A stretch of 64,000 bases of DNA from Siphonodentalium dalli (Eukaryota; Mollusca; Scaphopoda; Gadilida; Siphonodentaliidae). The translations under genes and the position numbers were made by a program. Below, piece after piece: positions 5,605-60,345 of this stretch (position 1 is its first letter; each line of letters begins with the position of its first letter). Under the pieces are notes generated by a model. The model searched no databases and was not told where the DNA came from. It saw nothing but the letters and a program-made list of their open reading frames with translations. The DNA lies in the NCBI GenBank assembly GCA_032622095.1, contig CP136069.1, forward strand, positions 2,327,462 to 2,391,461. Direction: 5' to 3'.

Positions 5605-6318
5605 TTTACCAGAATCCAGCCAATGGTTCCTGACGTCTCACTAATAATGAATGACACAAACCCAATTCCGAAAAAAATCTGGTCCGTCAGCTCCCAACAC
5701 TGCTCCGAAAACCATGAATTGCAGTGGATTCGTGTGACCAAGTACAAAGCGACCTGCTACAATCTCTGCACAGCATCAGAATATGAGGCCGCCGCAACCT
5801 GGAATGACTGGTTCTCAGTCTCAACATGGAACTACTGGTTCCCAGGGGTATCCACAGCGTCCGTATAATAATGTGAATCCAGTGTCTCTCAAGGATATCT
5901 GGTTAATAGCCAGACGCCATCTTCAACTAATGTTCTCAGACAGATTGTTCCGTTAATGCAGCAAAAATGTGTGCCAAATGGCTATAATCAAACTAATAAA
6001 TCTCGGACTATGTTCAATCAATCTCAACATCATCTAATCAACATATGGGCGTGGCTTCACAGCAGAATCACCCTATGAGAGTGGGTGACTGGTCAACATA
6101 TGGGCATGCATGGCCCCACAACAGATGGGTATGGTTGCTCAACAAAATCAGATGATTAGCGGAGCTTCATAAATGATTGACGGTTCTATGCCCGGGGGCA
6201 GCACTCTTCCTCGTACCTTTGTGATAAATCAGCCAATCGGTTCACAAAGATTGACTGGACCTCAGTTAAACTATGTTACTCAGAACACTTTTTCAGTTTC
6301 AGGCCGCTAATTCAGCAG
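5605..6318 (+). pseudogene. STIL: STIL-like exon A (Q/N/P-rich disordered region), broken
   Basis: The exon follows the acceptor 'ctgattacag' and ends at CAG|gttagt. Reading across three frames gives low-complexity segments typical of a disordered linker: 'NMRPPQPGMTGSQSQHGTTG', 'TPSSTNVLRQIVPLMQQK', 'PQQMGMVAQQNQMISGAS', 'GGSTLPRTFVINQPIGSQRL' and 'LNYVTQNTF'. Lesions are TGA at 5735, TAA at 6170, frame changes near 5885, 6030 and 6110, and one extra T in the run near 6291. Removing that T would put the end 'FQAANSA' in the phase needed to join exon B. Assignment to STIL rests on position and phase, since the sequence itself is too low in complexity to be diagnostic. Confidence 0.55.
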
Positions 6319-6395
6319 GTTAGTATATAATATCTCTGAATGATCTGTGCCGAATTTGGCCGCTAGTTCAGCAGGGCAGTATGTAACATGTCTTA
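6302..6395 (+). repeat. Exon A 3' edge plus donor, tandemly duplicated (56-bp period)
   Basis: The last 17 exon bases and the start of the intron (6302-6340) recur at 6358-6395. The real donor is CAG|gttagtat. In the copy the same position reads CAG|ggcagtat, so its GT has been lost. Confidence 0.75.
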
Positions 6396-6767
6396 ATCGG
6401 TATGATATATTTAAACGGACATAGCCTATTTGAACCTTCAAGTGATCCTTGATTCTCCTAGGTGGCACATGATTTAATTATGTTAACTGGTTCAGTGCTG
6501 AAAGCCCATATTAGGACCCTATGTAAGAGTGCTGGAAGCCCAGATATGGGCTTTGGCAATGACACTGTCTTGTTTAGTCAACTCTTGTTTAATTTAATCA
6601 TTTAAATAGCGTTTGTCAGGTAATATTTCAGAAATATTGTTACATATATAATTAAAATGGGACATTGTGAAGTTTGAATGGATGCCAACCAATAAAATTA
6701 TCAGAAAAGGTACTTATATCGCAAAAAGTTTGAGAAAAATTACAAATGTTTTGCCCTAAAGGGCGGC

Positions 6768-7115
6768 CGACAACCAAGCTCATGACCATAACCTAATCAG
6801 ACATCCAGGCTCATATTGATAACCTACTTTGACAAACAGACAACCAGACTCATAAACATAGCCTAATGAGACATCCAAGCCCATAACCATTGCCTAATGA
6901 GACATCCAGACTCATAATCATTGCCTAATGAGACATCCAGACCCATCACCATAGTCTAATGAGACACCAAGGCTCATAACCATAGCCTAATGGCTAATGA
7001 GACATCCAGGCCCATAGGCATAGCCTAATGAGACATCCATACTCATAACCATAGCCTATTGAGACATCCAAGCTCATAACCACAGCCCAGAGAGACATCC
7101 AGGCTCATAACATAA
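6768..7115. repeat. 31-bp minisatellite in the intron after STIL-like exon A
   Basis: About ten or eleven imperfect units of 'gcctaatgagacatccagg' plus 'ctcataaccata'. Units vary at a few positions and one contains an extra 'tggctaa'. No gene is present. Confidence 0.85.
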
Positions 7116-7490
7116 TCACAAATGCATAATATATGGGGGTTAAATTTGAGAAAAGAGTGCAAATTATCAACTCCGAGCATAAAATTCAATAATTTTCTGT
7201 TTGTTGAAATATATATACGCGTTTTATTACGTGTGTATAGGCTATTTAGCAGCGAACCAGTTAATGTTGTTATGGCAACGTAACAAGAATTTCAGAAGTT
7301 TGTGATATTAAAATCATTGCAAAACAACGAATGTTGATTGGAAAAGCTGAGAATAATATCACTTTTGTTTGTATTTGGGCATGTAATAAATATAGAGACT
7401 GTATACTCCCTCTAGTCCAGAGAAAAAATACCTACAGTTTGTTCATTGTATTCAATTAAATTTCAATGTATCAGAATGTATTGATTGAAA

Positions 7491-7957: not shown

Positions 7958-8139
7958 ATGAATATAAACGATCTCAGCTATTAACAGCACTGATGGTGAC
8001 ATCCAGCCCCGGCTCATCAGGATTCATCACAACCACAAACTCCACCCACAGAACAGCTGGCCCACGATATCTCTTCTGAATTACTGACACCCTTCAAAGA
8101 AACAGCTAATCTTCGCGATAACATCCACTCATTTATCAA
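7958..8139 (+). pseudogene. STIL: STIL-like exon B, frameshifted
   Basis: The acceptor is 'ctacactttcag' and the donor is ATCAA|gtgagt. The first part reads 'EYKRSQLLTALMVTSSPGSS' in one frame. The second part reads 'DSSQPQTPPTEQLAHDISSE' and then 'LLTPFKETANLRDNIHSFI' in another, so a frame change lies near 8010-8030. The final AA joins the first G of exon C to make a lysine codon. The start phase fits exon A once that exon's extra T is removed. Function as for the whole locus. Confidence 0.6.
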
Positions 8140-8157
8140 GTGAGTTCATGTGTTAGT

Positions 8158-8235
8158 AACCCACAGGGAGCCTCACACAGATGGAAGCATGCACTACAGA
8201 GTGTCGTCTGCTCCAGTCTATATGAGGCTCTCTAT
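8158..8235. mobile_element. MITE family B fragment next to the exon B donor
   Basis: Contains 'acccacagggagcctcacac', 'agatggaagcatgcactac' and 'gtcgtctgctccagtctat', the consensus core of family B. It begins 18 bases after the donor, and a second copy of the exon edge (8244-8261, 'atttatcaagtgagttc') follows it. The period between the two edges is 113 bases. Confidence 0.7.
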
Positions 8236-8406
8236 GTGTAGATATTTATCAAGTGAGTTCGTACTTATAAATAATATTTTCTCAACAATCATTCAATTTC
8301 TACTAAATAAATAATATCTACTAATATAATATTTAGCAAATCATTCGATAATAAGCCCAAGTTTGGAATGCATTAATAAATCGATAAAGTCAAGGAATCA
8401 TAATAG

Positions 8407-10937: not shown

Positions 10938-11070
10938 GTCCGAAAGTTTATACACATAACTTCCTGTATTTGTTGGTTCCTGGAAATCCATGTACAAAAT
11001 TGAGTCCAAAAGTTTATACACATAACTGTTCCTGTATTCGCAGATTCATGTAAATCCATGTACGTAATTA
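10938..11070. repeat. About 65-bp repeat around 'gtccgaaagtttatacacataa'-type core
   Basis: Two units lie at 10938-11000 and 11005-11068, and a third at 12037-12100 beyond the pogo-like element. All end in 'aaatccatg'. The element therefore inserted into a short tandem array. Confidence 0.65.
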
Positions 11071-12035
11071 CAGTAAAACCTCTCCAAACCAAACACCATT
11101 CGGACCAGCCCTTCTGTTCGGTTTAAAAAGGTGTTCGGTTTATAGAAAATCGTACTACGGTCGGAATGTATTGACGTCACTACTAAGACTAAGAGTTGTC
11201 GAATCACAACCAACTCATTATTGATTAATTAAACTGTATTGAATAAATTACCAACTAAAATATAAATAACAATAGATAAAATAAATATAATAAGAATTAG
11301 AAACATGGTCTATTAAGATATAATACATGTATAGATAAGGCAGGAAACTTGGAAAAGATAAATTTTATGGTGATTTTTTAAAATTTCGCTAAAAATTTCA
11401 CATCATTAGTAGAGTAGTTTATTTAATATTCGTACCAATTTGCGGTGTTTTGTTCGGCGAACGCTTTGAACTGGATTATAACGGCAGCTGTCTGATTAAA
11501 TAACTATATGCTTATTTAACACTTTGAGTGAACAAAGGTGACTTCACAGTTAATACCGTGCTGACACTATGTTTTTACATCAATCACTGAGATGAATTGG
11601 ACTTTTTACGACCACTGTCCAAACTCAACACTAATTAGCTAAAAGTACACGATGGTAGTCTATTGTCACCACTAAAGTTTTAATCAACCTGTCACAATGA
11701 ATGAGCCATCACGACCACTCAGAGTTGAATGTATAGACCAGAAATTTAAACTTATAAAGGATCCCCAGTCTAGAGCCAAAACGAGCTCAGCATCAAGTAT
11801 GTCAAATCTACCGCACGTGCGTTCGGCTGGTAACGCTTTCCACATTTGGATGTCGGAGGTAATAATTAATGTATTCATTCACTTTTGGAATATAAAAGCC
11901 ATCCGATGTTCGGAATAGAGAGTTTCCGGTTTACATAGGTAATTTTTAGTGAGAATGCACTTTTGGGTCCAGACAATTTGTTCGGTATGGAGAGGGATTC
12001 GGTTTATAAAGCTCCGATTTGGAGAGGTTTTACTG
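11071..12035. mobile_element. pogo/Tc1-mariner-like non-autonomous element (copy 1)
   Basis: Terminal inverted repeats 'cagtaaaacctctccaaa' and 'tttggagaggttttactg' are each flanked by TA. A second, internal inverted motif ('gttcggtttata') lies near both ends. CAGT-starting ends with TA target duplication fit Tc1/mariner, most likely the pogo/Tigger branch. The 73-residue plus frame at 11697-11918 has no transposase catalytic signature I can recognise. The same element, duplicated with its surroundings, lies at 16392-17365. Confidence 0.8.
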
Positions 12036-12100
12036 TATGTCCGAAAATTAATACACGTAACTGTACCTGTATTCACGGGTTCATTTAAATCCATGCTATT

Positions 12101-13021
12101 AGAATGTTTCACTGATGAGTGTTTTATATTCCTTAAAGGCCTACTTAATTTTCGAATCTCCAGAAAACATGATTTACAACATATTCGATAATATATGCCA
12201 TTTGAAAGAAGTAGCCCCAAAACATTGTATTGTCGAATAAACTGTGAACTTGTGTGACACTGACGTGTGTTATGTGCTTAATTTCGATCTGGTGTGTACT
12301 GCCAGTTTATTATTTTCTATGGAAGGGGAATAACTCTTATCTTTTAGTTTTGAATTATGATGCATTCTGGGATGAATAATGGGGGAAGTCTCGTGGTGAA
12401 TCTGATAATCTATATCATTTGGTGGAGGCCTTTAGGCCACAGCTCTTCCGTATTCTGGTGGACTATTTATATTTCTGGTCCCTCTTACAAATGGTATATA
12501 ATATGGAATATCTTGTGTATAACGTGATCTGGCCAATCAAAAATTAAGTGGGGCTTTAAATATTGCAGTTTATCTGGGACAGCATAAACTCATAAATAGA
12601 CAAAATAGATAAAATCATTTATATTTATGCAGATGGTTCTATTCCCATCTACATGACCACTCTCCTCAGTCTAATGAGTTCCTGGAGTGAAGTGATTCTG
12701 GCACAGACATATCTCTGAGTTTTGTAAACTGGAGATGGATTATCTGAGAATGTTCTGTGGACGCTTTTTTCTCGGTTTGTAAGGGTACTTAAAATCTTAC
12801 TTCAAGATGAATCATGTGTGTCTGTTTCAAATCTCAGAGTATGCCTTCACAGTCAGTCAGGGGGACCCTGCTGAGATGCAAATGCTGTTGATGTGCGCAA
12901 ACATAGTATCTTTTTTTATTGGCCTTATCATTAACCATTACCTATATAGGAGCCATCTTTAGCATGTTAAATCATTACCTATATATGACCCATGTTTAAC
13001 ATTTCTGTCCTAATTTTACAG
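12101..13021. other. No gene seen; intron before STIL-like exon C
   Basis: The part up to about 12678 belongs to the segmental duplication. It contains 'ggtggaggcctttaggccac', a small palindrome. The rest is unremarkable and ends in the acceptor 'gtcctaattttacag'. Confidence 0.5.
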
Positions 13022-13239: not shown

Positions 13240-13249
13240 GTAATTAGTT

Positions 13250-13800
13250 AGTAACCCACATGGAGCCCCACAGAGATGGAAACACACACTACGGAGTGTC
13301 GTCTGCACAGACTATGTGGGTCTCTCTGCTATGGGTGTATGTTTGTGTAACTTGGTGTATATTCTTCTTATACATTTAGTTCCCACAGGGAGCCTCACAC
13401 AGACTGAATCATGCACTGTGGAGTGCTGTCTACTCTATGTGGGGCTCTCTATGGGTCGACATTTATCAAGTGAGTTCATTTGTAATAACACACAGGGAGC
13501 CTCACACAGATGGAAGCATGCACTACAGAGTGTTATCTGCTCCAGTCTATGTGGGGTTCTCTATGGGTCGACATTTATCAAGTGAGTTCATGTGTAATAA
13601 CCCACAGGGAGCCTCACACAGACTGAAGCTTACACTATGGAGTGCTGTCTACTCTAGTCTATGTGGGGCTCTCTATGGGTCGACATTTATCAAGTGAGTT
13701 AATGTGTTATAACCCACAGGGAGCCTCACACAGATGGAAGCATGCACTACATAGTGTAATCTGATCCAGCCTATGTGGGGCTCTCTATAGGTTTGTGTTT
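13250..13800. repeat. 115-bp array combining MITE family B and an exon B donor edge
   Basis: Four to five units contain 'agggagcctcacacagatgg', 'gtctatgtggggctctctat' and 'gggtcgacatttatcaagtg'. The last part, 'atttatcaagtgagttcat', is the 3' edge of exon B with its splice donor, seen at about 13456, 13571 and 13686. Other family B copies in the window lack it. The first unit, directly after exon C, is more diverged. Frames at 13316-13697 read through the repeat and are not genes. Confidence 0.8.
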
Positions 13801-14155: not shown

Positions 14156-15663
14156 GGCCAAAAAAAATTAATAGTTCGGCTCTCGGGCCCCGGCGCATTG
14201 CCAAAAAGACCCCGCGTAGATGCTTTTTATTTCGAAAAATAACCTGGAAACGAAATCTGCGTACGATGAAATTTCTAGACTAATACAAAACTAGGAATTA
14301 AAACCGGAACGAAACTTCACATCATTACCGTATTGTCGCGGGTCATAGGAAATAAAAAGCATTAAAACATGGGTGGTCTGACGTGAACCAATAGAGAAGT
14401 AAGTATTTTTATGTAAGTATATCCTAAACCATCAGATGTCTGTTCATCGCGGTATAATTCAAATCCAAAAAAATTTTGTTCCGTATTGTGAACTCTGCAA
14501 TTCCGCGAGATTAATATTCCGCAAGACCGGAAATGTTAAAAATCGTCGGAAAATAAATGAAATTAAACTAATGCAGATCCAAAAATGGACATGTTGCTCC
14601 CAATTGAAGTAATCCACAAGACTAAAACGATTAGAAAGTGGTCTATCGTGTCAGTACCCGGCGATATAAACCGGGACCAGTTGCCAAAGACTTATTTAGC
14701 GGTAAAATCGATGATGTTCAACATGATGAAAATCCCGTTCCCGAAGAAATTAACCCTTACCACGAACACTCTCAGGGTAACACGGTCATCCATGTATTCG
14801 TCTCGGACAAGAAAACGGGGGAGTTTCAAAGAATAACTTTGAGTGCAGGTGTAGAGGAAACTGTTCAGTCATTTGTTCGATATATCAGGATTGAAATCAA
14901 ATTGAAAACTGACTTAAGCAGTGGTTCTGAATCAGCACCTAGTGTTAGCAGTCAACAGAGACAGAATGCATTCGAGATTTTGTTGAACAGTAGCAGAAAA
15001 CTTTGCTGGCCAGATAAATATTCTGAAGTGGATAATCGGGATATACAAAAAAATCATGTCCTGTATAATGATTTCATCGACTGGCTCCAAGAGCAGAAAC
15101 TTGGCTTCATGCCAAGTCATGTTAATACAGCAGGAAAAGATTTCTGCAAATTTGTTACAGATACACTCTGGTACGTGGATCCAGTCAGGAACCGATTTCA
15201 AGAACGGAGCATTTTATTGCCGAAAGTATTCGATAGATTCACCCGATACAATAACCCGAAGCTTCACAAGCATAAAATACCAAACATCTGCTTAGAAGAT
15301 TTAATAACACATGCCACTACCCTTGACCGTGTGACCGACCAACCGATACAAGACAGTCAACACTAATATAATATAAGTGACATTTATGTGTCAACACATG
15401 CAATGAACCACTGTTCTTTTTATTTTGTGAGCATTCCCTCATGTTTTTGCATTAAAGTTGTTGATAAAAGTTGTTGATAAAATTCTTCAGTCCAAAAAGG
15501 ATATATTACATGGTATAAAGTAAGGTAAAAGTAAGATAAATCAATTCCTTTTGCATCAGAAACACATCATAAATAATTATAAAAAATAAAAATAAAATCC
15601 TGCCTCCCTCACTGATTTGAAAAAAAAATTGCCCGAGAGCCTAATAATATATTTTTCTTGGCC
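14156..15663. mobile_element. PIF/Harbinger-like element with TAA TSD and an orphan ORF
   Basis: The ends are inverted: 'ggccaaaaaaaattaatag' then 'ggctctcggg' at the left, and 'cccgagagcc' then 'aatatatttttcttggcc' at the right. TAA flanks both sides (14153-14155, 15664-15666). GGCC-type ends with a 3-bp TWA target duplication are what PIF/Harbinger elements show. The element carries the open frame at 14585/14638-15366. The right half is repeated at 18122-18812 in the segmental duplication. Confidence 0.7.
14585..15366 (+). CDS. Transposon-borne protein of unknown function (about 240-260 aa, probably one frameshift)
   Basis: The ATG at 14585 opens a frame starting MDMLLPIEVIHKTKTIRKWS. The main long frame runs 14635-15366 in another register, so the present sequence probably has one frame change between about 14640 and 14760. 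The product is hydrophilic with no signal peptide or membrane segment. The C-terminal half ('YNDFIDWLQEQKLGFMPSHV', 'FCKFVTDTLWYVDPVRNRFQ', 'LLPKVFDRFTRYNNPKLHKH') is rich in aromatic and basic residues and looks folded. It contains no DDE catalytic triad or zinc finger that I can point to. Its location between Harbinger-like terminal repeats suggests the accessory, DNA-binding type of protein such elements carry beside the transposase, but that is inference. The truncated duplicate at 18134-18520 is nearly identical. Confidence 0.45.
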
Positions 15664-15840
15664 TAAGTTGTCTGCCTATATTTCCTGAACACCCCTCCAG
15701 ATGAAGAACAGACCATTCCAATGTAGACTTTTATAAATGACGGAAGAATCCATTTTGTAAAGAAAGGGTTAAAAGACTCGGGTGGAAGTAATAGTTTTCA
15801 TGACTTAAAGATGGTCACTCTTTTCCTAAACACGTTTTTT

Positions 15841-15861
15841 ATATATATATATATATATATA
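15841..15861. repeat. (TA)n microsatellite
   Basis: About ten TA units directly before the CTAG end of the Helitron-like element. The duplicate at 18906-18913 is much shorter because about 119 bases are missing there. Confidence 0.9.
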
Positions 15862-16133
15862 CTAGCCGATGAGCCGACGTTGTCCGGGCTATTCAAAAAC
15901 CAAATTTCAATTTCCGAGATCTGGTCTGCGCATGCGCGAAGCTGGCGTCGCACGGGCTCGGCGACCCGATAAAATTCGTATCCGGGGCTGCACGGGCTCG
16001 CCAATATGACAACGACCACCGCCTGGTCAAACTACACACACGTACCAAGTTTAGTCCCGATCGGTCGAGAATCGTAGATTTGTATTAATGACAGACAGAC
16101 AAACAGACAGAGGTCTTCAAAATATATATGAGA
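15862..16133 (-). mobile_element. Helitron-like non-autonomous element (copy 1)
   Basis: Read on the minus strand it starts TCTCATATATATTTTGAAGA and ends with a GC-rich stem ('cccggacaacgt') followed by 'ggctcatcggCTAG'. The TC start, 3' hairpin and CTAG end are Helitron-type termini. The same family, longer and internally repeated, occurs at 26426-27049. Confidence 0.6.
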
Positions 16134-16391
16134 TAACTAATCTATAAATACTAATGTGTGTCTCTGACTCTCTCTCTCTGAATGTTCCTTATAGCCGTCC
16201 ACATTTCTGCACCGATTGCGATAACATGAATTGTCATTTTTTAAATCCTAAGCATGATGTCCGAAAGTTTATACACATAACTTCCTGTATTTGTTGGTTC
16301 CTGGAAATCCATGTACAAAATTGAGTCCAAAAGTTTATACACATAACTGTTCCTGTATTCGCAGATTCATGTAAATCCATGTACGTAATTA

Positions 16392-17973: not shown

Positions 17974-18120
17974 GGTTTGCCACACATGGTCGACGAGTTT
18001 ATCAGCCATTGAAATCACTGTTAGATTAGCCGTAAGTGTGCGGATTTCCTCCACCATTAAAACTGGCAATGTCGTGATATGGCCTTAGTGGCTAAAGCGA
18101 CATAAAACCCCAATCAATCA
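17974..18120 (+). mobile_element. 5'-truncated SINE at a deletion breakpoint
   Basis: This is the 3' half of the tRNA-derived SINE found complete at 31767-32083 on the minus strand, from 'ggtttgccacacatggtcga' to the tail 'accccaatcaatcaatca'. It lies exactly between copy 1-equivalent positions 12678 and 14969. The tRNA promoter region is missing. Confidence 0.85.
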
Positions 18121-18121
18121 A

Positions 18122-47080: not shown

Positions 47081-50000
47081 CTGTAATTTAATAAATGTCA
47101 TTGAATGGAGCCTCATGGAGATAAATACATGCCTTCATTTCACAAACCAAATTATATAGAGAGTAATAATTGGTCCCGAGAATTATGCTAAATAATTCAC
47201 AAGAGGCGTGACACGTCAGTAAGAAATGAGTGTGCATTAGCGCACGAGTTTCTTACCCAAACATCTCTCGCTTCGAGTGAATTATTGAACATAACTCTCA
47301 GAACTAATTGATTACTCTATATATTACACTTGTACATCAATTTTGTTCGCCAAATATGATTAAAACACACAGAATTAATGCATGAAAGTCCAGATGTGGA
47401 GAAAGATCAACCATAAAAAATTCAGTCTAGATCAGTAAGCGACGTAACGTCAATGACGTCACGGGAAATGACATAATTCACTATAGTCCAAGTCTTCTTG
47501 TACTAAAACCAGCTAAGATATTGGGATGGCGATTTGCTGTTTTTAGTCCAAGCCCGCTTGTATACCATTCCTATCACACGAGTTACGCCCACGATCTGTG
47601 GCGGGAATTTGTGGTGTATTTTACTCGATTTACCTAGAAAATCAATACATGATGCTATATACATCGGAAAGGCTTACATCTTATGGTCATAATGGTGTAT
47701 AATAATCTAACTTTAATGTTAAATTACACATAGAATATTCCGGTTGATTGCCACAAACATCGATTTGTTTCTCTGTTTGTTTACGTTTTAACCGAAAGCC
47801 GAAGTGGTCCGAATAAGTTCGGCATAATCCGCTGTTTGTTCTGGGAATTCTACTTTCCGTTTCTATATATAGCGCGGGTTTTCCGAACAAAAATGGCGAA
47901 AACCGATCGCCCGAAAGTCCAGTTTTCTATGTGCTTTCAGAACAATTCCCGCACTAAAAACTTAATGACATAATGGAGGATCAGAACGGTAGTTTTGTTG
48001 ACAATTTTCGCAAGCAACTTGTCAAAATTGGAGCAAATTAGAACTCTTGTGTCTGACTTGCCATGCGTGTGATGTGCATTTTGACATCTGTGTTGATAAA
48101 ATAATCGGAGAACCGAATCACACAGTTACGAAATATAGTTCTTCCGTTTTAGTGGGACTTTTCAAACTTAAGGTTAAAAATTTATACAAATTTGATTTGA
48201 TTTTTTGTGTGCTTAACAAGAGCAGTATATTGCCCTGTTCGCTTAGTATATATCTTAATTTCGCGGAAGTCCACCAAATATGGGTGAAATGTAGCACCAT
48301 ATAAGGCATATTATATCTAATGCTCGTAACTTGTGTTTACACTGTCTTAAACGTTGAGAGGGTTCTAATTCCCGTAATTTATTTAGTGTATTACATTTAT
48401 ATCTCCAATGTTTAATTAATCTATTTATTATTTTATTTATTGACATACATAATTACGATTACAATGGAGAATTCATCGTAATGTGCGCTGTTGTCCAAAA
48501 TCTACGGAATATTTTCAACGGAAAATGCCGAACACAGTTCGCGAGGTCAACCGAGTTCGCATACTTTTAAAAAATTGTAAACATTGAGGTAAATGTCTCT
48601 TTTCGCATTAAATTACCGTTTTAAATTCACAACTGATGTGGGTTTCAGATAAAATAGCATGTCTTCTGCAGAAAATATCCGTTTATTGTCGCAATTGTGA
48701 TATTTTATTTCATATAATTGTGGTTTTATTTGAGCGGGTCACTAACGCTTAAGCTCTGTCATAAGAGAGCATATAGGACGGGCTTGGACTAAAAACAGCA
48801 AATCGCCATCCCAATATCTTAGCTGGTTTTTGTACAAGAAGACTTGGACTAAATTCACTAGTGACATTACCATTTTTAATTAACAGCGTAGGAGTGTAAT
48901 AAATTATAATCATCCCTCCATGACCTCAATGATACATGAAACCATGGGCAACAGGATGGGGTGGGTCTGATTAGAACAAGAGGTTGCACTGGGATACCCC
49001 CGATGTGCAAATTCAAATGTGGGCATTGCCGACGCCATCAACTAAGAGGGACCTCCACAATTGTCTCCTCCATTCAAAAAATGGTTCTAAAACATCAGCA
49101 GAAGAGCCGGATGCCACAAATTGTGAAAAATTGACAAACTAAGAGCCGTAAATCATGCCCAAAAAATTGGATGAGCCTTTTTCCTCACTGATTTGAGATG
49201 TTGTGGCAAGGAGCAGAGTAATTTCCAGGCCAGTTTTGGTACGTGTACCAGGTATGGGATCCCAAACTCCAGGCGCCCAAAAAACAGTTAGAAATGGAAT
49301 AAAAATACTCAGATAATTTGTTTTTGACCATTACTACTAAAAAACAAACAACAACTAACACTAAATCATCAAATAAAGCAAAAAATTGTATTTAATGGCA
49401 GTACTAGGGGGAGGCCACCCCATACCCTCCCCCAACTTAGGGCTGCAGCCTTTGGATATGACTTTGGCATATAAAACAGGAGTCCCCAAATAATTACTGG
49501 AAACTGCACTGGCAAGGAGCTTGAATAACAACAATTATTGAAATCTGTTAATCTGTTTCCTAGATAGGCTATATATCTGATTCTGTGATGTCACCAACTT
49601 TTTAGATAATACGACATCAAAATATTTAATTTAGGAATATAGGAAACAACTTTTGTCGAACAGTGGAGCAGTGGGCTCAAAGCACTAACCATAAAATCTA
49701 TTTACTGTTTCTTTCAATCACTGGTATTCCAAATTAGTGGAATTGTGCGTTGGCCTCTTATTTAGAATATATGGCATATAAAAGTGAGCAAATCATAATT
49801 GTTTTTTTCGAATGATCATGGCTACAGTAATGCTCTAAATAATCGACTCCTTAACCACAGCAGAATTATGGGTAACTTTTCAGGATTTAGTCAGAAATAT
49901 GGCTTGTTGCCATTCATCGGAAAGCTCTCACTGCTGTGGTTAAGGGGTCGATTATTTAGAGCATTACTGTGTAATGAATTTATAATGGTCCAGTAGTGGA

Positions 50001-53000
50001 TCAAATTCTCGGAACCTCTCCATCAGAAAGTTTAATGTTCACAACAAACGGGTTATGTCCCAAATGTAATTTGGGTATTTGACATAAAATAAAACTTGAC
50101 CAACATTTCTACTATAGCCCTACAAGCGCAGATTTTATTAAGGATTTGATAATCCATAGATGTCCTAATATTTCTTGAATCGATAGGAAATGCATAATTA
50201 TGAACAAAGCAGAAGATACATTCAGGTTGATGCGAATTCAATCAATGGGGAAAGTTACATGATGACCTTGTTCGTTGCCTTTCATTGAAATCGACATGAT
50301 GATCTATATGAATGAAATGAACATTATGACATGGACATGATTCTCCATCTAGTATCTCAAATGGAGAGCTCCACCAGCGTCAAAAATATAATAGTTAATT
50401 TCATTAAAAGGCTCCCAGTTCCCCTCTCGACAACCTAGAACTAGCTTCACTTTTGCACACTTAGATGTCGGTAGTTTATACTCTATTATAATTTGTACCA
50501 AACAAACAGAACTTGTATGTGTACATTATGAATCTTGACTCAAATGGCGCCACTTTTGACATCTATAAACCATACCAAGATTCCTCATATCATGGAGATG
50601 ATTATGTATAAGTTTGGTGGAAATCAGCGACAATTTTTTTCTGCCCCTCCCCCGTTTGTTCCCCTGACAACAGCATCACTTTAGAAAATTCTAACCTGCA
50701 CCATTATCTTTCTCGTAAAAAGGTACCCCAAATAGACCCCTCTGTTGTTATCTAGATGGTCCCCTGTGAATTTCTATAGAACACATACAGACAGACAGAC
50801 ATTCGCAAATATATATATAAGATAATAATTTGTACCAACAAACAGATACTTATGAACCCCTGGGTAAATGATAAAAACCCCACAAAATAAGGCTTATAGT
50901 TCATCATGTCAGAACTAAAGTGTTCTATCTCCGTAAAAATACTATTATACAATGAGTTTCGAGACAAAACATATCATATCTTAGGATCTTGGGTGTACTC
51001 ACGAAAAAAACACTTTGGAGATAGAACAATTTGCATAAAATTTTCTGTTTTTATTCCGTGCTATAGTGGTTTTTATGTTTGTCAATCATATAAAGGTGCA
51101 AAAATCCCAAATCATGCCATTTTCTGTGTTATTTTAACCAAATAATTATCATAGAGATAAGATGTTCACACCTAGGAGTGAGAAATGGTGGGAATCTATA
51201 AACTGATTCTGATCAGATTTTTGTTTAAAGCCACAGCTACATGTGAGTGATTTAATTATGGTTCGTTAATTACGGTAGCAAACGGTCAAATTATTTGTTT
51301 GAGTTATAAAGATGGTGATTGTGTCATCTGATAATTAGGGGATAGAGAAATAAACTATAAAAGGAAAAGAAACTTTCCAGAGAAGATGAGGCCTAAGCAG
51401 AATGCAAATGTGCGGCACCATATTTAAAAACAGACCAGCCTACATACTGACCTGGTTTGACATCATCACGCTGACGCCAGTCACAATGCCTTCCTTAGCC
51501 ATTATAGATCGTGGACTGATTTCTATCGGACCTCTGGCACCAACGATCTGGAAATTAAAACTTTTGGTATATTATCCCTTTCTGCACAGAATGGCTTGAA
51601 ATAATTCTTTTGGAGGGCTGTTCATGCAAAATCAGCAGACAACAGACAGATGAACTTATAATACAAATGCTGAAGGATTACTGTTCAGATAATAAGTTCA
51701 ACTTATCTGAACCTTTCCTAAAGGATAACGACTCATCTGTGAGTATTTAGTAAGGATGGATTAAAGACATATTATGTACTTGTTCGGGTGCATGAAACTG
51801 ATAAGTTAGTATCCAGGTGCTATGCCAACTGGAGGAATAGATCATTCTACTAACATCACCGAAAATTTCAAGCAAATCGACCGTACCACTCCATAGAAAA
51901 CATTGTCTGAACTACGCTAAATTGTAAATACTGATAATTTACTACTCGAATCGGGACGTTTCTATCAGCGATAAACTAACGAAAACAATTTCACCATCGG
52001 CAGTCAATGCATTTAAATAATAAAGAAGAATGTCGGTGTGTGTTGTCAATTAAGATATAATATTTGTAAAATAACTACTTTGAACAAGATTATTCTCAAT
52101 TTCTATTTGATCACCCTACCGGAGTGTTTCACATCACTTTAAAGATATCCTGTCCGATTTTACACAGTAAAACTAGGATCCTGCGAATATTCGATGTTCA
52201 ATTCATTATTCCACTCGGTCCCAATATTTGATTGCAATATGTTCAGGTAAACCCTATCATTCTCCATTACTTAAATTTTTGTGATTGTGATACAGATGGA
52301 AAATTATCACGCTAATCGCAGGTTCCGTGAAAAGTCTGAACAATTTTAAGCATCAACCAGACGGTCAACATTAGGTTTCAGAGAACAGGAATAATGAACA
52401 ATTTATTCAGACAGGCAGGCAAGGATCAACTCACAATCACAGGCTCAATTCATGGTTACAGAATGAGGTCCCCACAGGGTGAATTTAGTGACGCTATCCC
52501 ACATGACCTCATCTGCTATGTGAGACATAGACTCAGATTGAATTCCCAAATGGTGAATATTTTGATGTAAACCCATTGGGAACCTCAATTATGAAATGCG
52601 TCTAAACAGAATGAGGTCCCCAGAGGGTGAATTTAGTGATGCTAGCCTGCTATGCAAGATAGCGTCACTAAATTCGCCCTCTGGGAACCTCATTCTGCAA
52701 AATGACAGACACACTAAACTCAGGCTTGGTCAGTAATGTATGACATCCATCTCAAACCTCGCTGATAAAGTTTAATATTTAACCCACAGGGAGCCTCACA
52801 CAGATGGGAGCATGCACTACAAGTGTCATCTGCTCCAGTCTATCTGGGGCTCTCTATGGGTTAGACACTCATAACTATATCAGGCTTGTTCACAACATAG
52901 CATGAGATTTGAACAGCTTATGACAACATGTATGTACATGGGATGTGACCACACACAGAAGTTCATGGTAATCACCATGGTCATGTGACCTCTTCAAAAT

Positions 53001-56000
53001 GTAGGTGTAAATAACACATTTTGGCTGGGTATGGGTCCCTCCCTGAAGTATGTCAACCAGTGAAGGCAAACCCTTGCGAAAAGAAATCCGAGCTTTTTTT
53101 TAAAAAGTTTGGGAATCCTAGGAATTCATAGGATTTCCAAGGTTTGAACCAAGCTTTTTGAATGAAAAAATGTCTCAGTGTTGACCAAACCTTGGTAAAG
53201 CTAAGTAAAGCTTGGATCTAAATTTTACCAAACTTTACCAAGCTTTACCACGGTTGTCGCATAAAGTGAAACCTTGGAAAAAGCTTGGAAATCCTTGTCT
53301 CAGTGTTGACCAAACCTTGGTAAAGCTAAGTAAAGCTTGGATCTTAACTTTACCAAGGTTGTCACATGAAGGGGAACCTTGTAAAAGCTTGGAAATCCTT
53401 GGAAAAGCTTGGTAAAGCTTAGTCGCAAGTCACATGACTGGGTCACATGACTATGCAGACGTCACTGTTGTCTGTGGCAGACATTTTGAATCAACTGTTG
53501 CAGTGAGTTTAAATTTTCAGGTAATTTATTGCTTGTGTGGCCCTAATGTTTTCTATTTGACTCATAGAATATGGTTGTAGTGATATTTTTATTTATGATA
53601 TTATTTTAACAATTGTTTTACCATTTTCAAGAATGACCTTAACCCTTTACCCAACAGAAGGGCCATGTGCCAATGCATTATCTTATATATGCGAGTCGAC
53701 CATAGGTCGCCTCGCATATATAAGAGAATGCATTGGCTTAACACATTAAAAATTATAAAATTGTTAAAGAATGTAAGAAAAAATGGTAAAAAGTGTTAAA
53801 AAAAGATTTTTTTTAGGCCAATGCATTCTCTTATATATGCGAGGCGACCTATGGTCGACTCGCATATATAAGAGAATGCATTGGCACAGGGCATAACTGT
53901 AACTATCACAATGTGGTCAAGGAGCCGGTTCCAATGATATCCATAGTTGTATGGTTCTATTGAGACAGACCGAAGATATTTTAGGCTGTTGAAGCTTTAT
54001 TTGGCCGGTTTTGGCCGGTTTGTTGGGTAAAGGGTTAAGGACCACTATCTACCTTTTCATTCCAAAGGCTTGTCTATTATTGTCTATCATCCTATACATT
54101 GTACATGGTATAACATACCATAAAGTAACATTTATCTCAATCTAAATAGAATTAAAACATTCTGATTTAAAAGTGAACTTTGAATGAATAATGGCATGGT
54201 TCAAGACTGTTGTAAATTTCAAGAGATTGTATCATTAAGGATGATGATATTGTCAAAGTTGAAGCCTTTGCAGTGCCATTAGAGTCTGAGATTTTAACCT
54301 TTTAAATACAAAACAATTTTAACCTTGGTAAAGCTTGGTAAAGCTAGGCTGCAACCTTGGTAAAGCTTAGCTGTAACCTTGGTCAAGGTTGCAACCTTGG
54401 TAAAGCTTGGTAAAGCTAGGCTGCAACCTTGATAAAGCTTGGTAAAGCTAGGCTGCAACCTTGGTAAAGCTAGGCTGCAACCATGGTAAAACTTGGTAAA
54501 GCTAGGTTGGAAACCTCGGTAAAGCTTGGTAAAGCTAGGCTGCAACCTTGGTAAAGCTTGGAAAAGATAGGTTGGAAACTTTGGTAAAGCTTGGTTGGAA
54601 ACCTTGGTAAAGCTTGGTTTGTAACCTTGGGAAAGCTTGGTAAAGCTAGGCTGCAACCTTGGTAAACCTCGGAAAAGTTATGATTAAGATATTGTTAAGC
54701 TTGGAAATCCTTGGATGAGCTCGGTTGAATTTTCTGAGGTATTCCAAGGTTTTCCTAACTTGAAACGTTCCAATACCGCCCCAAGGATTTCCAAGCTTTT
54801 CCAAGTTCTCCGATCCTAGGATATCCTAGGAATTCCAAGGAATTTTCCTAACTATTCCAAGGTTTTATTTTGGTAAGTGAAGTGAGAAATAAATGCTAAG
54901 AATTACCAATTTCTGCATTATATCACCCATATATACAGAAATTGACTCATTGCCATTCATCAGAAAACTCTCACTGAGAGCTTTCTGATGAATGGCAACA
55001 AGCCATATTTCCGACTAAATCCTGAAAAATTACCCATACCAGTAATTCTGCTGTGGTTAAGGAATCGATTATTTAGGGCATTACTGTACTCATATAAACA
55101 TGAATATGCATCAAATAGCCATTAGTATGGAAACCCAGATGGTTGCCACGGTCACATGACCTCTATGAGTGGCTATGAACTTGTGATGCCTATGTCTAAT
55201 CACATATGAAGTTTCAACAAATTATTACAAGCAATACTTGAGATACACTATGTTACCCATGTACACACATAATGTTTTTATACATGTATGGTATACTTGG
55301 AAGTGGGGAATCTTTCCGTGGTGCTGACTGGCAGCGAAAGAGTTATTATGAGGTTTTGATGACCAGATATCGACTTTGAATAGAAAAAGAACCTCAATGC
55401 CTTCTAAGTGTATAAACCATAGATAGCCCCACATAAACTTCAGCAGACGACACTCCATAGTGCATGCTTCCATCTTTGTGAGGCTCCCTGTGGGTACATA
55501 CAACTACATGAAAAAATAGATTTACTTTGTTCTTATGTTCATTATTAATAACTCTCCAGTAATTACAATTCACATGTCAAAACCATTGTTATGTAAACAT
55601 TACTGTTACAGTGGAATTACAGATAAAAGTCCAATTAGTCAGGTCAGTAACATTTGAAAAGCTCAACGCATTGAAAAATATTCTGAAAATCATATTCAGT
55701 TTCTCCAAGTTCTCCTTATCAGTGATTTTAATGCATACATTTATATATTTTGGCACATTTATCCACTGCGAGTGACTTGGGTACAGTACCTTTAATTTCA
55801 GTTATCGCACATGTATGTTAACACACACTTCAGGGAGAATAAAATAATTGAGTTTACCACAACAGTTCCATGGAAGCTCATGAGATCTATGTCACTTTGT
55901 AGATTAACGTTGGACAGCATCTCAATAGTTAGATTCACACCAGATTCACCAACTTTAGCCTGAAAAAACAAGAGGCCGGTCACAATCAGCAGATGTGTAA

Positions 56001-59000
56001 GCCACACATTCAGCCATTTATAATATGCATCTCGATAGTTAGATTCACACCAGATTCACCAACTTTAGCCAGCAAATACAAGAGGCTGGTCACAATCAGC
56101 AGATGTGCAACCCACACATTAAACTATTTATAATAAACATCTCGATAGTTAAATTTACACCAGATTCACCAACTTTATAGCCTGAAAAAACAAGAGGCCG
56201 GTCACCACAATCGGCAGATGCGTAACACACACATTCAACCAGGGTTCTTGCTGACACTTGCCAAATTCGCCAATGGCAAAAAAAATTCACATTTGGCAAA
56301 AAAAAAATTTATTTGGCAAAAGTTTTGGCAAGTCACATTTTAATTCCTCACTAAAGTTGAAAAATATTGGTCAATCAATACCATTCATTTTAGGAAATTA
56401 GTACAATGGAATATATTAGTAGTGTTTTATATGGTTTCGGAAAAGTTCACACCTCCATTAATATGCAGTTAATTAGTATCGATGGGTGGAGGGATTACCC
56501 GTATTAAGTGTGATGGTGGTGTTTACATAGCTAAATTAATCCTCTTGTGATGTTCCATTATGATAAAGCAACGCTTCTACCATCATTGTATTGTTCGGTG
56601 ATTGGTTTATTGCTGTATGATAAACCACAATAGAGATGAGAGTATAATAATTAACTAACTGCTTTTCTATCGATATCAAACCGCGAGTGTTGGAACATAA
56701 GACTTAATCAAGGTAGCAGAAAATGATACTATTAGTGATAATATTTGGCAAATTCTAAAAAAAAATTGGCAAAAAATATTTACATTTGGCAAATTATTTG
56801 GCAAAAGTCAATTTCGGTCCAGAGCGGACCCTGCATTTAACTACTTATAATATTCATCTTGACAGTCAGATTTACACCAGATTCACCAACTTTAGCCTTC
56901 AAACAAAGAGGCCGGTCACAATCAACAGACCTGTAATCTGCATAGATCATGCCATGAATCTCTAGCCTGCCTAACACCCGTAAAGATCATATTCCACCAG
57001 TATAAAACCTTGGAACTTTTTGAAGTTTTGACAGAGAACTTTATAAAGTCGAAAAAATAAAGCGGGGAATATATTTCTTAGTTATTATCTGTTACTTTCT
57101 AAATAGTTTCTGATGTCTGATTGCGTTTTAAGATGACAAATGTGTCAATGATGAGGACAAATGTTTCAATGATGAGGACAAATTGGATAATTCAAATATA
57201 TTTTAATCAGGTGTCTAACATTTATTTTGTTGAGATACTCATCATTTCTATGGTTACTCATAGCTTTATCTAATCGAGATATCCATCGTTTCTATGGTTA
57301 CTCATACTATTATTTCATCAAGATATCCATCGTTTCTATGGTTTTACTCATACCTTTATTTCATTGAGATATCCATCGTTTCTATGGTTTTACTCATACC
57401 TTTATTTCATTGAGATATCCATCGTTTCTATGGTTACTCAAACCTTTATTTCATCGAGATATCCATCGTTTCTATGGTTACTCATACCTTTATTTCATCG
57501 AGATATCCATCATTTCTATGATTAAACACATGATCGGCACCATTTCTTCCTACTACGTCCATCCCCATCTGGGACCCTGCTGTTGCAAACACCTCCATGC
57601 CCAGATGCTTTCCGATCTGTACGCAGGCCAATCCAACCTGAAAACATGAAAAATATTATTTGTACGCAAGCCAATTTAAAGTGATGTGAAACACTCCGGT
57701 AGGTTGAGCAAATATAGAAATGGATAATAATATTGCTTAAAGTACCGGTAGTTATTTTTACGAATATAAATCCAAATTGACAACACACACCGTCATTCTT
57801 ATATATTAATTAAATAGAATGATGCTAGATGGCGAAATCTTTCCGTTAGTTTATCGCCAATTGTTGCGTCCTGAATTGAGATGTAAATATTTACAATTGA
57901 GCATAGTTCAGATGATGTTTTCTATGGAGTGGTATGGTCGATTTATTTGAAATTTTCGGTGGTGTTAGTAGAATGTAACATTCCCCAGGTTGGCATAGAG
58001 CCTGAGAACTAACTTATAAGTTTATCGCACTCGAACAAGTCCATAATATGTCTTTAACCTGCTGAAAACATAAAAAAAATATTCTGTACGCAGGCCAATC
58101 CAACCTGAAAACATGAAAAATAAAATTTTTCCTGTATAAATACCAACTAGAGGTGCGAGTGTCCCAATGTGACTAAGGATACCCCCCCCCCCCCTGTGTT
58201 TTAAAAACACTAAGATATTTCACATGTCAGTAAACATTTAGTTAAAATAATAAAATAACAGATTCCCATTGAAGTTGCACAAACCTAACCCCTAACACTA
58301 ATCCTAAACCTATTGACCTAAAAATTGTATAAAATTATATATGTTGCGAAACTTTTCTAAGTCGAAAAAGGGGGATAACTCCACCAAAAAAAGTCCGACA
58401 GATGTCATAATCACAGGTGCACAGGTTCCCATGGTGGTTGATGTCTGCGCCAAGTTTTACAGAAAACCATAAAAAAAACTCCAAACAAATTTGTGTCAAC
58501 AGACAACGGATGGACGACAGACAATAGATGGCTAAACTGATTCCAGTATACCCCCCCCCCCCCCCCCGCACCCAACAATTTTTTTGCAGGGGGGTATAAT
58601 TAAATATGGTCGGATATGACAAATACATTGCATATCTCTCTATCTTATGACAGCATTTCTGTTCAGTGACATTATGCAGCCTGTGTTTATGGATAGAGTC
58701 GGATATTTTGATAACCATTGGCTGCGATTTGGGAAAAGAATTATTGCGATGCCCAGCCGGCACGAAAAAATTAACTGGGTGTATGGCGGTCATGAGAATT
58801 ATCGCGGTGTATGGTGATCGCAAAACAAATCGTACATCCTGATATATAGAATCGTACATCCTGTTTATATATAGAATCGTACATCATGATATATAGAATC
58901 GTACATCCTGTTTATATATAGAATCGTACATCATGATATATAGAATCGTACATCCTGATATATAGAATCGTACATCCTGTTTATATATAGAATCATACAT

Positions 59001-59657
59001 CATGGTAAAACAAATTAAAGCGACTATAATTTACTTGGCTACTGCATTTAAAAAGATATGTCAAAATCTAGCTTTTGCGGAGATACCACTTGACCGCGGT
59101 TGACTGGTGGTATGACTGCGGTCATTTCCGGCCTATAACCTTGTTAAAGGGGTTGATTAATTAGAGCATAACTGTATATCTCTTTCTTCAGTCTATTAAG
59201 ATATTTACCAATTTGCCTGTGGTTTGAAATACGAGCCTTCTGAAAGTTTGAGGCGATGACAGCATTGTATTGATGGATTGGATTTGACCATGATTTTTGT
59301 GATACAATTCAGAATATCTACCACAAAATAACATTCATAAATCCATGGGAACCAAGGTTACTGACCAATCAGGATGAGCCTTGTATGCAGATTTAGGCAA
59401 GGTCATATTTCAAACTGCATAGTCTTGATCATAACAAGAGTTACAGTGAGAGCTTTCCGATGAATGGCAACAAGCCATATTTCCGACTAAATCCTAAAAA
59501 GTTACCTATAATTCTGCTGTGGTAAAGGAGTCGATAATTTAGGGCATTACTGTATTTCTTAAATAAACATCATCATACATTTGAAGTATAAGTTGATAAA
59601 CTTACCCCGCCACTTGCTCCATGAACCAGTAATGTCTGACCTTTCTTGGCATGACCC
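46919..59657 (-). CDS. CRYZ: Quinone oxidoreductase / zeta-crystallin (last five exons)
   Basis: Exons on the minus strand: 59657-59606, 57637-57488, 55959-55858, 51547-51452 and 47080-46919. All four introns are GT-AG and phase 0. Together they give 186 codons with no stop, against about 330 in the family, so the N-terminal third and first part of the Rossmann domain lie beyond 64 kb or were not recognisable. CRYZ is a cytosolic, zinc-free member of the medium-chain dehydrogenase/reductase family that reduces quinones using NADPH. 'VHGASGGVGLA' carries the dinucleotide-binding glycines, 'NLTIEMLSNVNL' and 'GARGPIEISPRSIMAKEG' match conserved blocks, and the end 'ASGKMVLKV' is the normal C-terminus. 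The introns (1.5-4.5 kb) are loaded with MITEs. Intactness suggests a working gene. Confidence 0.9.
47484..48851. mobile_element. MULE-like element, ~75-bp inverted ends and perfect 9-bp TSD
   Basis: Flanked by aattcacta at 47475-47483 and 48852-48860. Ends: 'tagtccaagtcttcttgtac' and its complement, continuing inverted through 'gatattgggatggcgatttg' to 'agtccaagcccg'. Long terminal repeats and a 9-base duplication are typical of Mutator-like elements. The interior has a promoter-like 'tatatatagcgcgg' (about 47865) and short frames, one (48047-48304) starting MCLTCHACDVHFDICVDKI with C..C..H spacing that might be a zinc-finger remnant. No transposase. It lies in the CRYZ intron. Confidence 0.85.
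48900..49823. other. CRYZ intron, no further gene seen
   Basis: No conserved frame on either strand; no repeat boundaries recognised. Confidence 0.4.
49824..49969. mobile_element. Palindromic MITE family D, copy 2
   Basis: 'cagtaatgctctaaataatc' against 'gattatttagagcattactg'. The central loop is deleted on the right side. Confidence 0.85.
51452..51547 (-). CDS. CRYZ: CRYZ internal exon
   Basis: Acceptor 'ttaatttccag', donor CAG|gtcagt. 32 codons: IVGARGPIEI, SPRSIMAKEG, IVTGVSVMMS, NQ. Matches the conserved 'VGSRG.IEINPR..MAKE' strand-helix region at the end of the cofactor-binding domain. Confidence 0.92.
51761..52140 (+). mobile_element. TTAA-flanked MITE family G, copy 1
   Basis: Ends 'ttaaagacatattatgtac' and 'ggagtgtttcacatcacttt'. 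A copy in the opposite orientation lies at 57680-58053. TTAA flanks both. Confidence 0.7.
52451..52727. mobile_element. MITE family A, copy 4
   Basis: 'acagaatgaggtccccacag' to 'cactaaactcaggcttggtc'. The left outer end is missing. Confidence 0.8.
52780..52866. mobile_element. MITE family B copy
   Basis: 'taacccacagggagcctcac' to 'atctggggctctctatgggt'. Confidence 0.75.
53070..54870. repeat. 'aaagcttggtaaagc' minisatellite, split by a family C MITE
   Basis: Units of 14-35 bases around 'ccttggtaaagcttggtaaa' occur at 53190-53425 and 54320-54670. The outer margins (53070-53180, 54690-54865) carry related 'ccaaggatttccaagctttt' sequence in opposite orientations, as though the array formed inside an element with inverted ends. 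A frame of 120 codons on the minus strand is repeat-derived. Confidence 0.8.
53639..54037. mobile_element. MITE family C, long variant, TTAA-flanked with perfect 14-bp ends
   Basis: TTAA, then 'ccctttacccaaca', and at the far end 'tgttgggtaaaggg', TTAA. Inside are two near-perfect hairpins around 'gcattctcttatatatgcga', the second with 30-base arms meeting at 'ggcgacctatggtcgac'. Ends and target site fit the piggyBac type. Confidence 0.88.
54951..55088. mobile_element. Palindromic MITE family D, copy 3 (left arm lost)
   Basis: The central hairpin 'ctctcactgagagctttctg' and the full right arm to 'ttagggcattactg' are kept. Confidence 0.8.
55420..55500. mobile_element. MITE family B copy
   Basis: 'gatagccccacataaacttc' to 'gtgaggctccctgtgggtac'. 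Confidence 0.7.
55858..55959 (-). CDS. CRYZ: CRYZ internal exon
   Basis: Acceptor 'cttgttttttcag', donor GTTGTG|gtaaac. 34 codons: AKVGESGVNLTIEMLSNVNL then QSDIDLMSFHGTVV, equivalent to the family block 'G.D.IIEMLANVNL..DL.LL..GGRV'. Phase 0 at both ends. The acceptor edge is repeated upstream (see the repeat at 55925-56910). Confidence 0.92.
55925..56910 (-). repeat. CRYZ: CRYZ exon acceptor edge, four tandem copies (~110-bp period)
   Basis: The first ~33 exon bases with the acceptor tract recur at 56061, 56171 and 56890 in addition to the true exon ('cagattcaccaactttagcc' on the + strand). The acceptor dinucleotide AG is lost in the first copy (ctg) and kept in the other two. The last gap is widened by the hAT insertion at 56240-56833. 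Confidence 0.88.
56240..56833. mobile_element. hAT-type MITE, 8-bp TSD, inside the exon-edge array
   Basis: Flanked by cattcaac (56232-56239) and catttaac (56834-56841). Ends 'cagggttcttgctga' and complement 'tccagagcggaccctg'. Sub-terminal 'tttggcaaa' repeats occur on both sides. Confidence 0.85.
57231..57520 (-). repeat. CRYZ: CRYZ exon donor edge, about seven tandem copies (44-46-bp period)
   Basis: The + strand shows 'gagatatccatcgtttctat' followed by 'ggttactcatacctttattt' at about 57231, 57276, 57319, 57365, 57411 and 57455, and then the exon itself at 57500. On the coding strand each unit is the last ~33 exon bases plus the donor AAG|gtatgag. Two decoys have the exact donor, others are altered (ATA|gtatgag, AAG|gtttgag, no GT in the most distal). 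Confidence 0.92.
57488..57637 (-). CDS. CRYZ: CRYZ internal exon, NADPH-binding fold
   Basis: Acceptor 'catgttttcag', donor AAG|gtatgag. 50 codons: VGLACVQIGKHLGMEVFATA, GSQMGMDVVGRNGADHVFNH, RNDGYLDEIK. This continues GASGG from the upstream exon to give GASGGVGLA, the nucleotide-binding loop, followed by 'ATAGS' and 'NGADHVFNHR', which are conserved in the family. Both borders of this exon are tandemly duplicated. Confidence 0.93.
57617..58130 (-). repeat. CRYZ: CRYZ exon acceptor edge, three copies, one split by a MITE
   Basis: The acceptor and first 21 exon bases recur with a period of about 44: true exon (57617-57660), a second unit broken by family G MITE (57661-57679 plus 58054-58085), and a third at about 58086-58130 with the exon bases and 'catgttttcag' unchanged. 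Confidence 0.88.
57680..58053 (-). mobile_element. TTAA-flanked MITE family G, copy 2
   Basis: Inverted relative to 51761-52140. Inserted at a TTAA inside the second unit of the acceptor-edge array, so it is younger than the array. Confidence 0.78.
58142..58605 (-). mobile_element. Inverted copy of the 'ggggggtatac' element
   Basis: Two long C runs (58181-58194 and 58554-58567) and interior sequence match the complement of 23431-23884. Frames here are repeat-derived, including the 174-codon one continuing to 58859. Confidence 0.7.
58837..58997. repeat. ~22/48-bp tandem repeat 'atatagaatcgtacatcctg'
   Basis: Seven units alternating 'catcctgtttatat' and 'catcatgatatat' forms. Confidence 0.9.
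59085..59175. repeat. Dispersed repeat family E, second copy
   Basis: 'ttaaaggggttgattaatta' with 'gagcataactgta'. Matches 9930-9972. Confidence 0.5.
59444..59552. mobile_element. Palindromic MITE family D, copy 4 (left arm lost)
   Basis: Begins at 'gtgagagctttccgatgaat' and runs to 'tttagggcattactg'. Confidence 0.8.
59606..59657 (-). CDS. CRYZ: CRYZ internal exon
   Basis: Acceptor 'tgtttatttctag', donor GGG|gtaagt. One base completes the previous codon, then 17 codons GHAKKGQTLLVHGASGG, matching 'V.AGESVLVHGASGG' of the family. The next exon continues VGLA. The upstream exon was not found up to 64000. Confidence 0.9.
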
Positions 59658-59720
59658 CTAGAAATAAACAACGCTCAGAAATAAACAGATAAAACAACAC
59701 TTAGAAATAAACTGATCAAG

Positions 59721-60085
59721 CTTCAGTTTAGTGAGTCTGTCATTTGCAGGTCCCCAGAGTGTGAATTTAGTGACACTATCTCACATAGCAGGCTAGCATA
59801 ACCAAATTCAACCTCTGGGGACCTCATTCTGCACGGCCTCATCTGCTATGGTAGACAAAGACTCAGATTGAATTTCCCAAATGGTGAATATTGTGATTTA
59901 CACCCATTGGGAACCTCGAGTATGCAATGTGTCGTCTGCCAATTTGAGGATATAGAGAAACTAAACTAAAAAAGAAATAGATTCTATGTGAAGAAGTTTA
60001 TACAGAAATTTGATAATAAACAAACTTTCCAGAGAAGATGATGTCTAAGCAGAGAGTGAATTTAGTGGGGACCTCATTTCTTTAT
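59721..60085. mobile_element. MITE family A, copy 5
   Basis: 'gtgagtctgtcatttgcagg' at the left. The right end is degenerate around 'agtgaatttagtggggacct'. Confidence 0.7.
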
Positions 60086-60212
60086 AATGTGGGATATGTT
60101 GAGATAACAAAGAGCCAATGAGCAGTTGTTATCTGATTATTCCTAAAGGAACTGCATGTAATCATCAATGCATATTTAATCAAGAAAGGGTTAAACTTTA
60201 AAGGCTAAATCT

Positions 60213-60345
60213 TGCTGTAATGTCAGACCTTTGTGGCGTGACCCCCTGGAAATAAGCCAAATAAAACAACAGTTATATAAATAAAATAAACATAAAATAC
60301 AAATAAAACAACAGTTATATAAATAAAATTAACATAAAATACAAA
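60213..60345 (-). repeat. CRYZ: Decayed duplicate of the CRYZ exon 59606-59657 acceptor edge
   Basis: 'atgtcagacctttgtggcgt' plus 'gacccc' and the following 'aaataaaacaacag' match 59632-59700 ('atgtctgacctttcttggca', 'gacccc', 'gataaaacaacac'). The exon part is mutated. The intron part has itself been duplicated (60245-60300 and 60300-60345). Confidence 0.75.

Follow-up and report, generated by a model that had tools for sequence, protein, structure and literature searches.

Copies of exon borders in the introns of a zeta-crystallin-like gene and their probable origin by ordinary tandem duplication

Genes and exon borders in the window

The stretch of Siphonodentalium dalli DNA that we analysed (64 kb in all, referred to here as the window) carries at positions 46919–59657 of its minus strand a gene that, by both sequence match and intact frame, is a zeta-crystallin/quinone oxidoreductase (CRYZ) gene. 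Five exons of this CRYZ-like gene were placed on the minus strand by frame joining and by tblastn with a human CRYZ probe: Ea (59606–59657, 52 bp), Eb (57488–57637, 150 bp), Ec (55858–55959, 102 bp), Ed (51452–51547, 96 bp), and the last exon, Ee (46919–47080), which runs to the stop codon. Conceptual joining of the five exons yields a single open frame terminated by a stop codon. All four introns between them start with GT and end with AG (at Ea the donor reads GTAAGT and the acceptor CTAG). Exon Eb matches the Pfam domain ADH_zinc_N (E 2.8e-08), and the peptide encoded by Eb and Ec together matches PDB 1yb5, a quinone oxidoreductase (E 7.6e-21). In a tblastn search of the 64-kb window with the human probe, no exons were detected for roughly the 145 N-terminal residues. 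CRYZ was the sole Pfam match among ten open frames of the window, and scans of the window with Rfam (at the gathering threshold) and for tRNAs gave no matches. Of note, the lengths of the internal exons placed (150, 102, and 96) are all divisible by three, and phase 0 is shared by all four of the intervening introns.

A second gene, labeled 'STIL-like', lies on the plus strand. Its exons A, B (with the start assumed at 7930), and D contain stops in all three frames; in exon C one frame is open, but the frame expected to be coding holds a stop. The gene may be a decayed one. A Pfam search with two 'STIL-like' exon pieces gave no match, and the PDB matches to one exon peptide were mainly to designed repeat proteins, with weak single stretches, and lend no support to the STIL name. 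Because the exon frames are broken or uncertain, and because the STIL label is that of the preliminary description, the support that comes from this gene is weak and its borders weigh less than those of the CRYZ-like gene. (Six of its borders were tested; the start of exon B was left out as its position is too uncertain.) Approximately 100 bases from the end of the last 'STIL-like' exon recur as a 79.8% copy at 34815–34911, 12 kb downstream.

Copies of exon borders in the adjoining introns

A border was counted as copied when a same-strand gapped local alignment, at a distance of at most 1.5 kb, covered at least 10 bases on each side of the border with a score of at least 18. Six of the 15 borders passed: the acceptors of Ea, Eb, and Ec, the donor of Eb, the donor of A, and the acceptor of D. 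These comprise four of the nine readable CRYZ borders, with between one and six copies each, and two of the six 'STIL-like' borders. Nothing above threshold was found at the donors of Ea and Ec, either border of Ed, the acceptor of Ee, the acceptor of A, or either border of C. The claim made in the preliminary description that nearly every readable exon border is affected thus does not survive the use of one criterion throughout, nor does its range of 13–35 bases for the copied part of the exon, the actual span being 9 to approximately 43 bases. The underlying observation, that the exon edge and its splice site have been copied into the neighboring intron, stands at the six borders named; the donor of B has an exact 17-base copy that stays below threshold. 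A copy number of one to six per border is likewise upheld (six at the Eb donor, three at the Ec acceptor, and one each at the Ea acceptor and the A donor).

At all six borders that passed, the copied unit runs across the junction without a break, taking in sequence of both exon and intron. Since exon and intron remain joined in the copies, the copying must have taken place at the level of DNA, and copying from spliced RNA was rejected. Head-to-tail adjacent copies occur at the Eb donor, the Ec acceptor, the A donor, and the D acceptor. The copies of the Eb and Ea acceptors lie 467 and approximately 587 bases off, respectively, so that these two acceptors are today without a tandem copy above threshold. 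Most copies are 83–98% identical to their own exon edge, and the copied splice sites (decoys) range from identical to dead, with changes of GT to CT, GT to GG, and AG to TG.

The series with the most copies belongs to exon Eb. At its donor (57488) the functional copy and six more form an array at 57221–57524 on the minus strand (TRF period 44, 6.8 copies, score 453; the copies were also listed singly), which runs away from the exon in units of 44 or 46 bases, each made of 33 exon bases and 11–13 intron bases. In two of the decoys the junction region matches the functional site exactly (AAAG followed by GTATGAGT). Of the other four, one reads GTTTGAGT, another has ATA followed by GTATGAGT, a third carries CT instead of GT, and the last has decayed. 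Two of the decoy units are identical to each other. At the acceptor of the same exon (57637), a stretch of 37 bases across the junction has an exact counterpart 467 bases upstream in gene orientation, within a copy at 58083–58128 (minus strand) that comprises 22 exon bases plus intron and is 95.7% identical over 46 bases. A further, decayed copy of the Eb acceptor edge, without the AG, was read by eye at 57660–57682 (minus strand), approximately 43 bases from the exon edge.

The acceptor of Ec (55959) has a 110-base unit with three further copies, D1 to D3. The functional copy, D1, and D2 make up an array at 55916–56239 on the minus strand (TRF 55916–56241, period 110, score 488). D1, the nearest, has lost the AG; D2 has kept it and has a 2-base insertion in its exon part. 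D3 (56834–56936, minus strand; AG kept; 84–86% identical to parts of the array) lies beyond a 594-base insertion at 56240–56833 that cuts this outermost copy off from the rest. The ends of the insertion, read on the minus strand, are CAGGGTCC and GAACCCTG, and its flanks, GTTAAATG and GTTGAATG, look like an 8-base target duplication with one mismatch. From these ends and flanks we take it to be a probable hAT-type element.

The acceptor of Ea (59657) has a single copy, at 60217–60260 on the minus strand, approximately 587 bases upstream, in which CCAG is kept and which is 86% identical over 29 aligned exon positions. (An ungapped scan missed this copy.) Judged by position, the Ea acceptor and its copy have probably also been split by inserted sequence. 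Note that a 26-base tandem repeat found by TRF in the pyrimidine tract that precedes the Ea acceptor (59666–59716, minus strand) does not span the junction.

We asked what reading through from the decoys would entail. Past the Eb donor the sequence continues GTA TGA, that is, with a stop at the second codon; in-phase read-through meets a stop after 16 codons from the Eb acceptor copy, after 8 codons from D2, and after 19 codons from D3; and the Ea acceptor copy is followed by stops within 40 codons in all three frames. Use of these decoys would therefore be expected to hurt. That stops would be introduced by the decoys read, and that several decoys retain perfect splice sites (at 57420 and 57374 for the Eb donor, and at 58120 for the Eb acceptor), might be taken to mean that they are kept for a purpose, either generating premature-stop transcripts that lower CRYZ output or buffering the loss of the main site. 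We think this very unlikely, as the GT or AG has been lost in other copies of the same arrays and as arrays also occur far from placed exons.

The identity of the two Eb donor units, together with that of the Eb acceptor copy over 37 bases, would also be expected if the copies were artefacts of assembly, arising from haplotype copies or repeat expansion. Against this, the 83–98% identity of most copies to the exon edge goes with decoys that differ among themselves, and an array split by an insertion, as at Ec, is not readily produced by assembly errors. The range of decoys from identical to dead and the split Ec array instead speak for a neutral history, and an artefact appears extremely improbable.

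Copies at the borders of the 'STIL-like' gene are all on the plus strand. The donor of exon A (6318) and a copy 56 bases on, in which GT is now GG, were found at 6302–6382 by pattern search of the sequence. At the acceptor of exon D (21771), an array at 21611–21789 with a 58-base unit and 3.1 copies (TRF, 95% matches; sequence read) includes two decoys, both of which have kept the AG. At 8131–8260, sequence search found the donor of exon B (8139), an imperfect palindromic repeat of approximately 80 bp, and then a copy of the donor edge; this is the exact 17-base copy, which lies 113 bases on, includes just 9 exon bases, and falls below the score threshold applied to all borders. An array of the same repeat in which the donor edge of exon B appears three times, twice exactly and once with a single mismatch, was detected by TRF at 13382–13792, 5 kb off and past exon C.

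The palindromic repeat (CCCACAGGGAGCC...), which is 67% self-complementary, is scattered through the window on both strands (8157–8239, 13249–13792, 42506–42573, 45562–45938, 52780–52861, 55418–55512, 62637–62716, and 62827–62897), and at several of these places it recurs at close range with flanking DNA, as if promoting local duplication. We considered whether such a repeat, acting like a transposon, had carried the adjoining exon edges with it and so amplified them in tandem. An exon edge does alternate with the repeat at the donor of B and in the array at 13.4–13.8 kb, and the repeat is present more than once at close range at 45.6–45.9 and 62.6–62.9 kb. Its matches in the window, however, exclude the CRYZ junction units, the A donor, and the D acceptor, leaving the unit of the B donor as the only junction unit that holds a dispersed repeat, and we accord this explanation very little credence. 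A single mobile repeat behind all of the arrays was rejected, because the junction units differ in sequence and period between borders, as the preliminary description had already concluded.

Duplication background and enrichment at borders

Local duplication is frequent throughout the window. Of 1500 random positions in the window, 24% were spanned by a same-strand copy within 1 kb with a score of at least 18, which bears out, within this window only, the earlier suggestion that local duplication is unusually frequent here. At the same score, only 0.5% of 600 positions matched when compared with distant stretches as non-local controls; the border copies exceed chance similarity. TRF returned 72 rows in the 64 kb, with many different periods (overlapping rows describe one array), and arrays occur far from any placed exon, for example at 35.6–36.1, 36.2–36.9, and 37.4–40.9 kb.

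Other repeats were seen alongside these. Between the two genes, 37444–40980 is occupied by large arrays whose periods are close to 164 and 174 bases. A block of approximately 1.6 kb is present twice, nearly unchanged, at 10938–12570 and 16259–17880 (approximate ends, read by eye and from identical TRF rows), and resembles a pair of young repeats or transposons; an open frame of 243 aa in the block at 10938–12570 has no Pfam match. Parts of 14970–16170 recur at 18120–19240.

Whether 6 of 15 borders exceeds this background depends on how the background is counted. At the main threshold, raw coverage gave a P value of 0.13 when the background was the whole window and of 0.03 when it was the introns of the two genes; over all settings, the two backgrounds together gave values of 0.006 to 0.35. 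All P values in this section come from a tiny sample in a region chosen for looking striking, with borders within one gene that are dependent; neither the choice nor the dependence is corrected for in the figures by coverage, raw or weighted. Raw counting, in the unweighted shifts below as well, is biased toward the null: an array of several copies occupies many positions today, although it began as one event. When each position was weighted by its copy number, so that each array counted as one event, the base rate was 6.1% in the introns of the two genes and 8.3% in the whole window, and the P values for 6 of 15 fell to 0.00016 and 0.00085, respectively, at approximately 5–7 times expectation. 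Across eight settings (four score thresholds combined with two distance limits) the weighted P value lay between 0.00002 and 0.05, and the number of passing borders varied from 3 to 6 of 15. Old copies of an exon edge are more readily recognized when selection holds the edge itself constant, and we therefore allowed a reasoned detectability factor of 1.5, with which the weighted P values at the main threshold became 0.0014 and 0.0068. In circular shifts, in which the 15 borders were moved together, at least six matches were obtained in 16% of 1730 shifts (mean 3.6); for the CRYZ borders alone, at least four of nine were obtained in 20% of shifts, and a weighted circular shift gave a P value of 0.065. 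Together, these results make an enrichment of copies at junctions over the duplication background of the window suggestive but not established.

These numbers bear on the idea, also raised in the preliminary description, that exon-intron junctions act as genuine hotspots for local duplication, for example through polymerase stalling or breaks at changes in base composition or in transcribed DNA. Passing at 6 of 15 borders against an event-adjusted 6–8%, the raw P value of 0.03 against gene introns, and the presence of different units at the two borders of exon Eb are what would be expected of such hotspots. On the other side, neither the raw comparison with the whole window (0.13) nor the circular shift (0.16) reached significance, and 9 of the 15 borders failed, including all three of the last two CRYZ exons. 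Moreover, the CRYZ cluster lies at 55–60.4 kb, in a part of the window where intronic duplication is dense (28% by raw coverage and 11% when weighted, junction arrays included), as compared to 12% by raw coverage at 46.9–55 kb, and the position of the junction within the units varies, as judged by eye. We therefore regard junction hotspots as unlikely. The broader proposition that junctions are several-fold likelier than intron interiors to gain short tandem duplications, with decoy arrays that could feed intron sliding, intron gain, or regulated mis-splicing, seems to us more doubtful still.

Origin of the copies and comparison with known systems

The explanation that we favor, with a probability of roughly 0.75, is that local tandem duplications, which are common here, covered several exon-intron junctions by chance and that the extra copies are harmless. 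A tandem duplication with one end in an exon and the other in the intron would leave an intact exon with its original site, together with a spare edge and splice site deeper in the intron. As long as the splicing machinery picks the exon-proximal site, the spare copy would be tolerated like any other intronic duplication, and it could later multiply to form an array, decay as point mutations accumulate, or be interrupted by insertions. No selection would be needed to account for the intron side, as harm would come only from use of the far site. The earlier suggestion that only intron-side copies survive thus follows from the geometry of junction duplication together with the premature stops behind the CRYZ decoys that were read. 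The duplications presumably arose by slippage, template switching, or unequal exchange, the junctions probably not being specially preferred, and the decoys are likely unused in splicing.

We also entertained the idea that exon ends were born from the arrays. This was rejected for Eb and Ec, the ends of which encode residues that align with human CRYZ. In the conceptual joining the CRYZ frame uses the exon-proximal sites without the copies, which argues against the copies having been taken up into an exon or a new intron. One observation fits plain neutrality less well. Between decoys, the exon-derived parts are slightly more alike than the intron parts (116/129 versus 102/124 at Ec; 0.875 versus 0.743 at Eb); this excess likeness is a weak sign against plain neutrality, given small numbers and overlapping pairs, and local homogenization could explain it.

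Junction-crossing duplication is itself already known; what is notable here is the copy number and the involvement of several borders within one gene. In the potato RdRp gene, a tandem duplication across an intron-exon boundary created a new intron (PMC4974935). Both there and here the tandemly duplicated segment extends over an intron-exon boundary and includes the exon edge as well as splice signals. Unlike in the potato case, the exon frame here is kept, the copies lie within the old intron, several borders are affected, and one array has six further copies. For Drosophila, PMC2891723 argues for new intron positions from intron sliding or tandem duplication and cites counts in flies of frequent, mostly tandem duplications, many of which touch exons. 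In both settings duplicated splice-signal sequence is raw material for altered intron positions; in the fly cases it is coding sequence with proto-splice sites that was duplicated, whereas here existing junctions were copied and no moved intron is known.

Repeated sequence around splice sites is also a feature of introners (PMC9860276). Introners are elements copied into many genes, whereas the sequence and period of the units here are specific to each border and the copies are local, with only the B-donor edge recurring 5 kb away. An introner was rejected, because the junction units of different borders share no element. In the Pacific oyster, too, there are many short dispersed arrays, some of which are tied to mobile elements (PMC8268682); the abstract of that study of satellite arrays names no link to splice junctions, unlike what is seen for arrays of this window. 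No survey of junction-spanning tandem units was found among the best-ranked matches in the literature, which does not prove that there is none.

If junctions were true hotspots, then the starting material for intron sliding and intron gain could be followed in large numbers, and it would have to be asked how the spliceosome selects the correct site among several identical ones. As a product of ordinary duplication, the locus offers a clean natural series, in which an intact Eb exon is followed by six copies of its donor, two of which match the functional site exactly near the junction. This series would be useful for testing proximity rules in the choice of splice sites.
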